DNA of 64,000 bases, taken from Lysobacterales bacterium (GTDB lineage Bacteria; Pseudomonadota; Gammaproteobacteria; Xanthomonadales; Xanthomonadaceae). Shown here one piece after another: positions 9,735-42,120 of the stretch. Location: positions 1 through 64,000 of the forward strand of contig JAEKKW010000068.1 of assembly GCA_019510195.1 (NCBI GenBank). The letters are read 5' to 3'. The notes beneath the pieces were generated by a model. The model worked only from the letters and a program-made list of their open reading frames with translations, had not been told where the DNA came from and did not search any database. Position numbers and translations under genes: made by a program. Numbering within the stretch: position 1 is the first letter of the stretch; each line of letters opens with the position of its first letter.

Positions 9735-10526
9735 ATGATCGAGGTCGAATTGCGGGTCGTGTCGAGCTACAAGGAAGGGCTGCTCATCGCGTTGAGCGAC
9801 ATCCTGCTCGCCAACCAGTTCACTTTGCTGCGCCATCGCCGCGCCAATACCGACAACGGCGTAATGATGTCACTGATGGTCAAGGGACCGGAAGCCAATC
9901 TGCTGAAGCTGGAAGAGCAGCTCGGTTCGCACCACATGGTGAGCAGTCTCGAGGCCGGCGTCTTCGATCCGGCTGCCGGCAACGCGCCGATGATCCCGAC
10001 CGCGACCGCGGCGACTCCGGCCGCCGCATCCGCGCCCGCATCCACCGACGGGCCGCCGCCCCAGAGCACCGTGGCCGACCAGAAGCGCATCGACCAGATG
10101 CTGCCGCAGGTCGCACGCGACTATCCGCAGATCTTCGGCACCGTGCTGGCGCTCGAGCGCAGCGTCGATCCCGCGCAACGCGAAGCCACCATGCGCCACA
10201 TCGGCGCACGTGTCGGCGCCTGGGTCTTCAAGCGCGATTTCGCCCTCGGTGCGCGCCAGTCGCTGGCTGGCTCGATCACCCATCTCGCCCTGCCGGCACT
10301 CAAGCAGATGATCCCGGTCAAGCAGGAAGGCGACTCCCTCACCACGACCAGCAGTCCGTTCTGCACGCCGGGACAGAAATCGTTGCCGACGCCGCAATGC
10401 CATTTCTTCCGCGGCTTCCTCGAAGGCCTGCTCAAGGAATCGGGCCATCTGGGCACCATCCGCGTCAGCGAGTCCACCTGCTGCGCGCACGGGGACGACT
10501 GCTGCAGGTTCGAGTTCCACGCCTGA
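9735..10526 (+). CDS. V4R (4-vinyl-reductase/hydrocarbon-binding)-type small-molecule sensor protein
   Basis: 263 residues in three parts: an N-terminal ACT-like alpha/beta region (about 1-80), an Ala/Pro/Thr-rich linker (about 85-110), and a C-terminal V4R-like domain. That domain ends in the characteristic Cys-rich segment [17 protein letters not shown], matching the V4R pattern E-x2-C-x-A-x-G-D-x2-C-x-F. V4R domains bind small ligands, often through these cysteines, in regulators such as XylR. No DNA-binding or enzymatic domain is present. GGGAG at 9723-9727 supports the ATG at 9735. It lies 60 bp before the MHYT gene on the same strand, so the two probably form one unit. The ligand is unknown. 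Confidence 0.65.
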
Positions 10527-15491: not shown

Positions 15492-15547
15492 GGGGGAATT
15501 ATCGCCCGGCACGGGCCTACACCGCATAATGACCACCGGAGGTCCCA

Positions 15548-22204: not shown

Positions 22205-23884
22205 TCAGAGAAAGGGCGTCATCCCGGCCCCGAAGGCCGTCACCAGCCGGGTCAGCCACCATTTCACCCCGAGGACGGAGACCCCCGGGAAGTCGCCGAC
22301 CGCCCGGTAGCAACGATGGAAATCGGGATCGCGGATCGACAACGGCCGCGGACAGTCGGGACCGGCGCGGAACTCGAAGGCGGTGGCGTAGCGGCTCGGC
22401 CACAGGTCGAAGATCGGCAGGCGTTCGCTGGCGCGGACGATGGTGTCGTCGACATCGGCGATGCCGGGTTCGCGCGGCGCGATCACCCAGGCATTCGCCG
22501 GCTGGGTGTCGCGCTCGATGCTGTCGGCCACGCGCGCCGCGAAGGCCGGATCTCGGATGATCAGCGCGCTCTCGGTGTTGTAGTTGACACCGCGCGGATC
22601 AAAGTTGTGGGTGCCGACCACGGCGATGCTGCGGTCGACCACCAGCGATTTCGCGTGCAGGCCGACGCGCGGGCGATCGGATTCCGGCGGTAGTGGCCGG
22701 TTGAGGCCATACAGCAGCACGCCGCGCCGCGAGGCGTCCTCGCCACTGGCGGGCAACGGGCGACGGCCAGCCCCGCTTCCGCGCACGATGCTTCCGGCGC
22801 CCTCTTCGCCTGCCACGTCTTCGGCGGTCACCAGTTCTCCGACGCGCATCGGCACGTCCTGCGGAAACGGCTTGAGTTCATACATCTCGAAACCGAAGCG
22901 CTTGAGAAAGCGCCGGCGGTATTTGTAGGCCATTGCATAGGTGAGCGCGTTGTCGATGCCCGCCAGGCTGCTGGTCGACACGATCACCCGCGGCGGATCG
23001 GCACGCCGGTGCAGCGCCTGGAACAGCCGCTGCGCACCGTGGGTCAGCACCAGATAGGGCGTCTGCACCAGGACTTCGTGCTGCGCCGATTGCACCACCG
23101 CGCCGACCACGCTGGACGCGGGCGCAACGGTGCGTCGCTTGGCGCCATCGTCATGCTTGCCGGGCGGATCGGCGACGAACTCGACATCGGCGACGGCAAC
23201 CAGCGCATCGCCAAGCCGTTTGCGCAGCAACGCCGGATCGGCGGAAGCATCCTGCATCGCTTGCACGCGTTCCGGCATCTCGTAGCGCTTCGCCGACAAC
23301 GCCGGCACGCCATGGGCGAGCAGGATCTTCGCGACGTCATTCAATTGCTCGACCGGAACGCTCTGCGGCGCTGCCCAGAACGCGTCGAAATTGGTCTGCA
23401 TCGCCTTCGCCGCAGGCCCCGATACCAGCACGTCGCGGTCGAGGAAATTGTAGGCCTGCGACCAGTCGTAATAATCGTCGCTGTAGTTGCGACCGCCGGT
23501 GACACCGACTTCGCCATCCACTACCAGCACCTTGGTGTGCATGCGTTGGTTGAGCTGGCGGAAGCGCAGGAAACTGGCGAGCACGTAATCGACGTAGTTC
23601 GGCCGCCCGAGGTTGAACAGCGGGCTGTAGATGCGCAGCTGGAAGTTGCGATGGATGCCGGAGAGTGCCGCCAGGGTTTCCGGCGACTCCATCGCCGACA
23701 GCTGGTCGATCAACACGCGCACCTGCACGCCGCGCCGCGCCGCCGCCAGCAATTCGCGCAGGATCATGCGCCCGGCATCGTCTTCCTTGTAGATATAGGT
23801 CTGGAGGTCGATGCGTTCGCGCGCACTGCGGATCATGTGCATGCGCGCCAGCAGCGCATCCTGGCCGTCATCCAGCAGCAGCAT
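22205..23884 (-). CDS. Phospholipase D / cardiolipin synthase-like protein, apparent N-terminal truncation
   Basis: 559 residues from the first ATG. Two HKD motifs, HTKVLVVDGEVGVTGG and HAKSLVVDRSIAVVGTHN, mark a PLD-superfamily phosphatidyltransferase or phospholipase, with the family openings RIDLQTYIYKEDD and FNLGRPNYVDY. Recognisable family sequence continues upstream in frame (HAEAIAIAARSDGVDCQRADHC) to about 23998, but no ATG, GTG or TTG exists there before a stop at 24080. The usual signal or lipoprotein N-terminus is absent. At that point the DNA becomes the end of the SixA-like gene in another frame, as if a deletion joined the two. It may be translated from 23884 without a signal, or be inactive. 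Confidence 0.75.
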   Translation of the reverse strand: MLLLDDGQDALLARMHMIRSARERIDLQTYIYKEDDAGRMILRELLAAARRGVQVRVLIDQLSAMESPETLAALSGIHRNFQLRIYSPLFNLGRPNYVDYVLASFLRFRQLNQRMHTKVLVVDGEVGVTGGRNYSDDYYDWSQAYNFLDRDVLVSGPAAKAMQTNFDAFWAAPQSVPVEQLNDVAKILLAHGVPALSAKRYEMPERVQAMQDASADPALLRKRLGDALVAVADVEFVADPPGKHDDGAKRRTVAPASSVVGAVVQSAQHEVLVQTPYLVLTHGAQRLFQALHRRADPPRVIVSTSSLAGIDNALTYAMAYKYRRRFLKRFGFEMYELKPFPQDVPMRVGELVTAEDVAGEEGAGSIVRGSGAGRRPLPASGEDASRRGVLLYGLNRPLPPESDRPRVGLHAKSLVVDRSIAVVGTHNFDPRGVNYNTESALIIRDPAFAARVADSIERDTQPANAWVIAPREPGIADVDDTIVRASERLPIFDLWPSRYATAFEFRAGPDCPRPLSIRDPDFHRCYRAVGDFPGVSVLGVKWWLTRLVTAFGAGMTPFL

Positions 23885-24456
23885 GCGGTTGCCCGCCCGC
23901 GGATTGGCGCTTTCGAATACCGATGGATCGGCGCAATGGTCGGCGCGCTGGCAGTCGACGCCATCGCTGCGGGCGGCGATCGCGATCGCCTCGGCATGGG
24001 TTCGGCCACGCCGGGTTCGATCGCGGCATCGTCGGGCAGGCGCAGCACCACCGTGCCCGACGGCGGCATCCCGCGCGCTTCACCGCTGCGCCCTTCCGAC
24101 AGGAAGGCCGCCAGTTGTTCCAGCGCCGGGTTGTGCCCGACCAGCCACAGGACATGGGCATCGCGGGCATTTTCGATCAGTCCGATCAGCGTTCCGACAC
24201 CGGCTTCGTAGATCGCGGCTTCCTCGCGCACCGGCAAGTCGCCGGTGGCCTTCATCACTTCCTGCAGCGTTTCACGGGTGCGTTGCGCCGGTGAACACAA
24301 CACCAGATCGGGCGGTTGTGCATGCACCTTCAACCACACGCCGGCTTCCGTCGCTTCCTTGCGGCCGATCGTCGACAGCACGCGGTCCATGTCGGACTGC
24401 CCGGGCCCGTGCGGCTCGGCGTGTGCGTGGCGGATCAGCACCAGTTCTTTGGGCAT
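23833..24456 (-). CDS. SixA-like histidine phosphatase with an out-of-frame alien tail
   Basis: 207 codons, of which the first about 152 are a histidine-phosphatase domain: LIRHAHAEPHG (catalytic RH), CSPAQRTRETL and WLVGHNPALEQL. SixA proteins dephosphorylate His of phosphorelay or nitrogen-PTS proteins and are about 160 residues. After GVAE (24001) the frame continues for 55 residues of basic, low-complexity sequence (for example PMPRRSRSPPAAM), which is the shifted frame of the PLD gene. The true C-terminus seems lost. The start at 24456 gives the family N-terminus MPKELVLIRHA; the frame itself is open to 24516. Confidence 0.75.
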   Translation of the reverse strand: MPKELVLIRHAHAEPHGPGQSDMDRVLSTIGRKEATEAGVWLKVHAQPPDLVLCSPAQRTRETLQEVMKATGDLPVREEAAIYEAGVGTLIGLIENARDAHVLWLVGHNPALEQLAAFLSEGRSGEARGMPPSGTVVLRLPDDAAIEPGVAEPMPRRSRSPPAAMASTASAPTIAPIHRYSKAPIRGRATACCCWMTARMRCWRACT

Positions 24457-32313: not shown

Positions 32314-33354
32314 GTGGCACTGCGCAGATCCACCATCCGGGATGTCGCGGAACGCGCGCAGGTGTCGTTGAAGACGGTGTCGCGCGTGATCAACAACGAG
32401 GCCGGCGTCCAGGCGCGCACGCGCGATCGCGTGCAGATCGCCATCGCCGAACTCGACTACCTCCCCGATCCTTCCGCGCGCAGCCTGCGCAGCGCGCAGT
32501 CGTACGCGATCGGCCTGATGTACGACAACCCCAACCCGTACTACGTGATCGCGGTGCAGAACGGCGTGCTCTCGGTCTGCCGCGAGAACGGCTACGGCCT
32601 GCAGATCCATCCCTGCGATTCGTCGTCGCCCAGCCTCGCCCAGGAACTGATCGCCACCGCGCAACACGCGCGGCTCGCCGGAATCGTGCTGGCGCCGCCG
32701 ATGTCGGAACGCCACGAACTGGTGAAGGAACTGGTCGCCCACGGCATCCGCCTGGTGCGCATCGTGTCCGCCGCCGCCGATCCGCAGGATGGCAGCGCCT
32801 GCGTGTTCGTGGACGACCGCGACGCCGCGTACGAGATCACCGAGTACCTGATCCAGCTCGGGCATACCCGCATCGGTTTCCTGTGGGGCGGCAAGTCGCA
32901 TGGTTCGTCGTGGGAACGCTACAAGGGCTACGAGGACGCGTTGCACGATTACGGCATCGCCCTCGACGACGCGCTGGTGATCGAAGGCGACTACTCCTTC
33001 GACGACGGTTTCCGCGGCGCGCGCCGCCTGCTGGCGCTGGCCGATCGTCCGACCGCGGTCTTCGGCAGCAATGACGAAATCGCCGCCGGCGTGCTCGCCG
33101 CCGCGCGCTCGAGCGGCATGAACGTTCCTTACGACTTGTCGATTGCCGGTTTCGAGGACAGCCCGTTCTCGAAGCAGAGCTGGCCGGCGCTCACCACCGC
33201 ACGCCAGGCGACGGAAGACATTGCGCGCCACGCCGCGCAACGCCTGCTGCAGGAATTGCGCGACGACGCCCCGGTGCCGACTTCATTGAACGAAGGCTTC
33301 AGCCCGGAACTGGTGGTCCGCGGGTCGACCGCGCCACCGCGACCGAAGTCGTAG
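32314..33354 (+). CDS. nagR: LacI-family transcriptional regulator NagR
   Basis: 346 residues from a GTG. The N-terminal helix-turn-helix TIRDVAERAQVSLKTVSRVIN and hinge DYLPDPSARSLRS are classic LacI family. A periplasmic-binding-like effector domain follows (SYAIGLMYDNPNPYY, FVDDRDAAYEITEYLI, GFEDSPFSKQSWPALTT). It lies in one unit with nagP. By position it should control the divergent glk/nagP promoters through the 16-bp palindrome, with GlcNAc or GlcNAc-6-P as inducer; that is inference. Confidence 0.88.
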   Translation: MALRRSTIRDVAERAQVSLKTVSRVINNEAGVQARTRDRVQIAIAELDYLPDPSARSLRSAQSYAIGLMYDNPNPYYVIAVQNGVLSVCRENGYGLQIHPCDSSSPSLAQELIATAQHARLAGIVLAPPMSERHELVKELVAHGIRLVRIVSAAADPQDGSACVFVDDRDAAYEITEYLIQLGHTRIGFLWGGKSHGSSWERYKGYEDALHDYGIALDDALVIEGDYSFDDGFRGARRLLALADRPTAVFGSNDEIAAGVLAAARSSGMNVPYDLSIAGFEDSPFSKQSWPALTTARQATEDIARHAAQRLLQELRDDAPVPTSLNEGFSPELVVRGSTAPPRPKS

Positions 33355-37107: not shown

Positions 37108-37248
37108 ACCACCGGCAGCGCCTATGCGGTTCGTCTGCAGAGCCGACCATACGCAGGATGGATGCTGCGTATGAGCCTACATGGACGTATTCACGGCGTG
37201 TCGGCGGCTGCAGACAACCGCGATAGGCGCACAGCCGGGCGATAACGC
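37108..37248. repeat. Structured dispersed repeat, copy 2 of 3
   Basis: About 141 bp between the convergent nagA and ParA-gene stops, ending 2 bp before the ParA stop codon. The arms beginning GCGCCTATGCGG and ending GATAGGCGC fold over about 30 bp, with the variable core TCTGCAG pairing with CTGCAGA. The central hairpin (37148-37173) has arms CATACGC and GCGTATG, and CTACATGGACGTATTCACGG follows it. Orientation is the same as copies 1 and 3. Confidence 0.88.
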
Positions 37249-41982: not shown

Positions 41983-42120
41983 GCCACCGGCAGCGCCAGC
42001 TCGGTTCGTCCGTATGGCCGACCGTACGCAGCATGGATGCTGCGTACGAGCCTACATGGACGTATTCACGGCGTGTCGGACATACGGACAACCGACGCCA
42101 GCGCTAGGCCGGGCGATGAG
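41983..42120. repeat. Structured dispersed repeat, copy 3 of 3
   Basis: About 138 bp in the second half of the gap between the convergent oxidoreductase and YkuD-type genes. Arms with TCCGTATG and CATACGGA pair; the central hairpin CGTACGCAGCAT/ATGCTGCGTACG (42023-42048) is perfect. CTACATGGACGTATTCACGGCGTGTCGG follows, as in copy 2. It ends about 10 bp before the downstream stop codon. Confidence 0.88.

Follow-up and report, generated by a model that had tools for sequence, protein, structure and literature searches.

The window, a stretch of 64,000 nucleotides (G000:C139), belongs to G000, a draft genome of 2.19 Mb that is spread over 149 contigs and is 90% complete. Three genes follow one another on its minus strand: a beta-hexosaminidase gene (glycosyl hydrolase family 20) at 26847-24532, a gene for a SixA-like phosphohistidine phosphatase that starts at 24456, and a gene of the phospholipase D (PLD) family that ends at 22205. 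sixA and the PLD gene adjoin on the same strand in 80 named loci of the Lysobacteraceae, among which the five close relatives discussed below (G015, G005, G008, G002 and G007, with 83-90% DNA identity over flanking DNA) are counted. The nearest named records with the locus, all Lysobacteraceae, are the drafts SZAS-108, -109 and -110, Lysobacter sp. clean267 and Lysobacter silvestris AM20-91. The features in and around the boundary of the two genes are listed in Table 1.

Table 1. Features at the sixA-PLD boundary, in window coordinates
Feature	Position	Strand	Remarks
Retained SixA-like phosphohistidine phosphatase gene	24001..24456	-	152 codons, ATG at 24456; RHAHAEP and GHNP motifs intact; Pfam His_Phos_1
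Junction of the probable deletion	23999..24000	-	CC on the minus strand, aligned to neither flank of the relatives (BLAST, alignment)
Unrelated 55-residue sixA tail	23836..24000	-	Out-of-frame reading of the sequence that codes for the PLD N-terminus; stop codon 23833-23835
Retained PLD-family gene with two HKD motifs	22208..23998	-	First ~29 codons and lipoprotein signal gone; PLDc_2, two stretches
Longest PLD frame still with a start codon	22205..23884	-	559 codons from the ATG at 23884; the intact form is longer by 68 residues
Overlap of extended sixA frame and shortened PLD frame	23833..23884	-	52 bases, from coordinates

The retained part of the SixA-like protein is 84-97% identical to its counterparts in the five close relatives, and it carries the motifs expected of branch 1 of the histidine phosphatases, a catalytic RH near the N-terminus and GHNP with the second histidine, whose residues R9, H10, G107, H108, N109 and P110 are invariant in 48 aligned sequences. 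NPr is the substrate named for SixA in PMC7948535. The protein is named SixA-like because both the window protein (60.7 bits) and the intact sister protein (66.3 bits) fall below the NCBIfam cut-off for SixA (TIGR00249, 74.5 bits); in the PDB, the intact sister protein matches a putative SixA best. As the first-pass annotation had described, similarity to all relatives ends after GVAE at 24001 and gives way to an unrelated tail. The C-terminal FWWP that is invariant in 47 aligned SixA relatives is missing from the window protein, and SixA ends in WWP in 79 of the 80 named loci, the exception being L119. The structure predicted for intact SixA closes with a strand at residues 152-157 (pLDDT about 93); most of this strand is gone from the window protein, whose tail is predicted to be disordered (AlphaFold2 pLDDT about 40). 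The window protein thus has the catalytic motifs and core in common with SixA phosphohistidine phosphatases (e.g. PDB 2rfl; TIGR00249), but differs from them in lacking the last conserved strand and in carrying an added tail. A second sixA was not found in G000.

Similarity of the PLD frame to all relatives begins at 23998, in a frame other than that of sixA, which agrees with the earlier placement of this boundary. The retained PLD sequence is 82-92% identical to that of close relatives and is free of internal stops, and its translation contains the two HxKxxxxD motifs of the PLD superfamily, HTKVLVVD and HAKSLVVD. It does not reach the NCBIfam cut-offs for cardiolipin synthase (81-100 bits vs 281-787), and the other PLD hits of G000 belong to distant paralogues. 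All 80 named loci encode a PLD with a hydrophobic N-terminal stretch that ends in a lipobox-like Cys, and both signal and lipobox are absent from the window PLD. Past the upstream stop (TGA, 24082-24080) the first ATG, GTG or TTG that the frame meets is the ATG at 23884, so that the first-pass annotation was correct in giving it neither a start codon upstream of 23884 nor a signal peptide. The window PLD therefore resembles the PLD-superfamily lipoproteins of Lysobacteraceae that adjoin sixA in its neighbour, its sequence and its two HKD motifs, but it differs from them in having no signal peptide, no lipobox and no start codon near its N-terminus. No promoter or terminator match was found near the junction.

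Comparison with the close relatives identifies the DNA that separates the two genes elsewhere. When the window is compared with the five relatives by BLAST, the matching blocks break at exactly 23998/24001 in all five. Against G015, G005 and G007, whose spacing is ancestral, G000 is short by 162-164 bp (~163 bp); against G008 and G002, whose own spacer is ~70 bp shorter, it is short by 94 bp. In these five genomes the missing piece codes for the end of SixA (VLAFWWP-stop, directly after the retained GVAE), followed by the spacer and the PLD N-terminus with its lipoprotein signal; in the sister genome G015 the ~164 bp comprise the last seven SixA residues and the stop codon, a spacer of ~51 bp, and the first ~29 PLD residues including the lipoprotein signal. 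This is the composition that had been proposed for the missing piece from the window alone, and the gap that had been predicted relative to close relatives is seen with each of the five. Relatives that share the overlap and have their protein ends conserved, which would have refuted this reading, were sought and not found: the G000 junction is absent from the 16 other genomes of the genus and from the 80 named loci, all of which keep the lipoprotein N-terminus, and a shared ancestral overlap is accordingly rejected.

A tree built from the flanking DNA, with G007 as root, places G000 next to G015 as its sister and groups G008 with G002, at modest branch supports of 73-76. Since G015 has the full spacing, the ~163-bp loss is placed on the G000 branch, and the grouping suggests that the losses in G000 and in G008/G002 are two separate events. 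PLD apparently begins at a GTG a few bases past the sixA stop in G008 and G002.

The first-pass annotation had left open whether the gap reflects a real deletion or a collapsed assembly. A collapse of the repeat type is unlikely: there is no direct repeat of the collapsing kind, no repeat or shared word of more than 8 bases was found within 30 bp of the ends or in the 60-bp stretches that surround them, and homology in register amounts to 0-1 base, which also removes a repeat-mediated deletion from consideration. Relocation of the missing piece is likewise rejected, as a search of the G000 assembly returned neither a second copy nor a fragment of it. The CC filler may have been templated, as the word CGAACCC is found again only a few bases further upstream within the sixA coding sequence, but no case can be built on two bases. 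Window 23975-23990 is occupied by a perfect 16-bp palindrome, GGCGATCGCGATCGCC, which most of the close relatives share; about 8 bases separate it from the right-hand edge of the deletion.

Two further gaps in the alignments proved to be of a different nature. At 33354 G000 seems to lack a further ~320-350 bp that G008 and G005 have, but these two genomes carry an intergenic insertion there, and G007 has the same state as the window; the gap at 15510 is due to a repeat insertion in G002. Insertions that contain CCATGTAGGCTCATGYGCNGCATCCATG account for the gaps between relatives at both positions; this intergenic repeat recurs in the genus (window 37157-37184 and 42032-42059 (-); L109:17334-17360, L110:349-375, L189:9953-9979). 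No other coding deletion specific to G000 was found in the ~37 kb compared.

Both genes have the appearance of genes under constraint. Private codon changes on the G000 branch number 21 synonymous and 3 nonsynonymous in PLD and 9 and 0 in sixA, and neither gene has stops or frameshifts. Pairwise dN/dS values of the G000 PLD (0.14-0.15) are inside the range of other pairs, the comparison set being the same two genes in other genomes. Synonymous divergence between G000 and its nearest relative is ~0.35-0.43 at these genes, and the lack of decay in either gene despite this divergence means that the loss is very recent, is a strain variant or is not real, or that the genes are still working. A hand estimate suggests that PLD has been unconstrained for at most roughly a tenth of the branch. 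A very recent loss is also what an assembly error would be expected to look like.

It is conceivable, though rather unlikely, that a chimeric read or a minor-strain variant entered the contig and that the dominant genome keeps both genes intact. An assembly or library artefact of this type would fit a draft of 149 contigs, the fully constrained look of both genes and a junction that occurs in no other genome, but the two non-homologous bases at the join, the failure to find the missing piece elsewhere in the assembly and the clean remainder of the contig over the ~37 kb compared argue against it, and the absence of direct repeats of more than 8 bases near the ends makes a repeat-driven collapse unlikely. 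The two extra bases, the lack of a repeat longer than 8 bp and the lack of another coding deletion favour a real deletion over an artefact. A recent deletion of ~163 bp, accompanied by loss of PLD function, is therefore the probable explanation, and a DNA molecule that truly carries the deletion likely exists.

Such a deletion would have taken the SixA C-terminus, the spacer and the PLD N-terminus and so brought the two genes together, and the junction looks like the product of end joining without long homology. SixA would have kept its catalytic core while losing the conserved last strand, VLAFWWP, and gaining the out-of-frame tail. Since the start codon and the export and lipidation signal are lost, PLD is most likely either not made or unable to reach the envelope, and would then be a fresh pseudogene. 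Alternatively, the tailed SixA could function and PLD could be a cytoplasmic enzyme whose translation begins at the internal ATG (23884) and is coupled to that of the overlapping sixA frame. Both frames are open and constrained, the SixA catalytic motifs and both HKD motifs remain, and the frames overlap by 52 bases, but the recency of the event explains the constraint equally well. This ATG lies within the ancestral coding sequence and is not kept as a start codon in relatives, where it is replaced by GTG in G008 and ACG in G007. The lipoprotein signal is universal in relatives, and a tail predicted to be disordered in place of the invariant FWWP end also speaks against a working SixA fusion. 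A functional fusion is thus very improbable, and a working overlapping pair kept by selection, in which translation of the tailed SixA is coupled to that of a PLD now cytoplasmic instead of in the envelope, is the least probable reading of all.

Seen as a recent deletion, the event is biologically ordinary. Unidirectional overlapping genes are formed when an upstream gene loses its stop codon and is extended at its 3' end (Fonseca et al. 2013, PMC3887535), and as in those overlaps sixA, the upstream gene, is without its stop and continues into PLD in a different frame. The case differs from them in that a deletion rather than a point change is involved, the downstream gene is also deprived of its start and signal, and nothing indicates that the overlap is maintained. 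Gene fusions born of deletions have also been described (Kaul et al. 2026 preprint, PMC12803068). As in those fusions, parts of two genes are brought together by a deletion and a new reading frame results; here, though, the deletion is small and affects neighbouring genes, and the fusion is out of frame and shows no sign of spread or selection. The ancestral arrangement without the deletion is seen in the relatives. The sixA-PLD case is a small, out-of-frame example of a known general kind.

The PLD gene of G005 (L112) carries an independent 5-bp deletion and frameshift at a GCGGC tandem repeat (about locus position 10140), possibly resulting from slippage or from sequencing error; G005 is also a draft assembly. 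This independent break suggests that PLD may be dispensable in the lineage. The distance from the end of sixA to the equivalent of window 23884 is ~800 bp or more in most loci, compared with 188-259 bp in the silvestris clade. One long sixA-PLD interval contains a YceI-domain gene, and a similar frame occurs in three other translated intervals (L114 and L162 are among the named loci with the YceI-like gene). The YceI-like gene is missing from the silvestris clade and from L167, L169 and L186, where it was scored as such because the interval is short.

Taken alone, the deletion carries little weight, being one more small private deletion that has probably produced a new pseudogene. It does offer a tidy case of neighbouring genes coming to overlap, and a practical warning: annotation would report a pair of intact genes at a place where both facing ends are damaged. 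In this lineage the gap between sixA and PLD has shrunk repeatedly: the silvestris clade is without the YceI-like gene, and G008 and G002 subsequently lost another ~70 bp of spacer.
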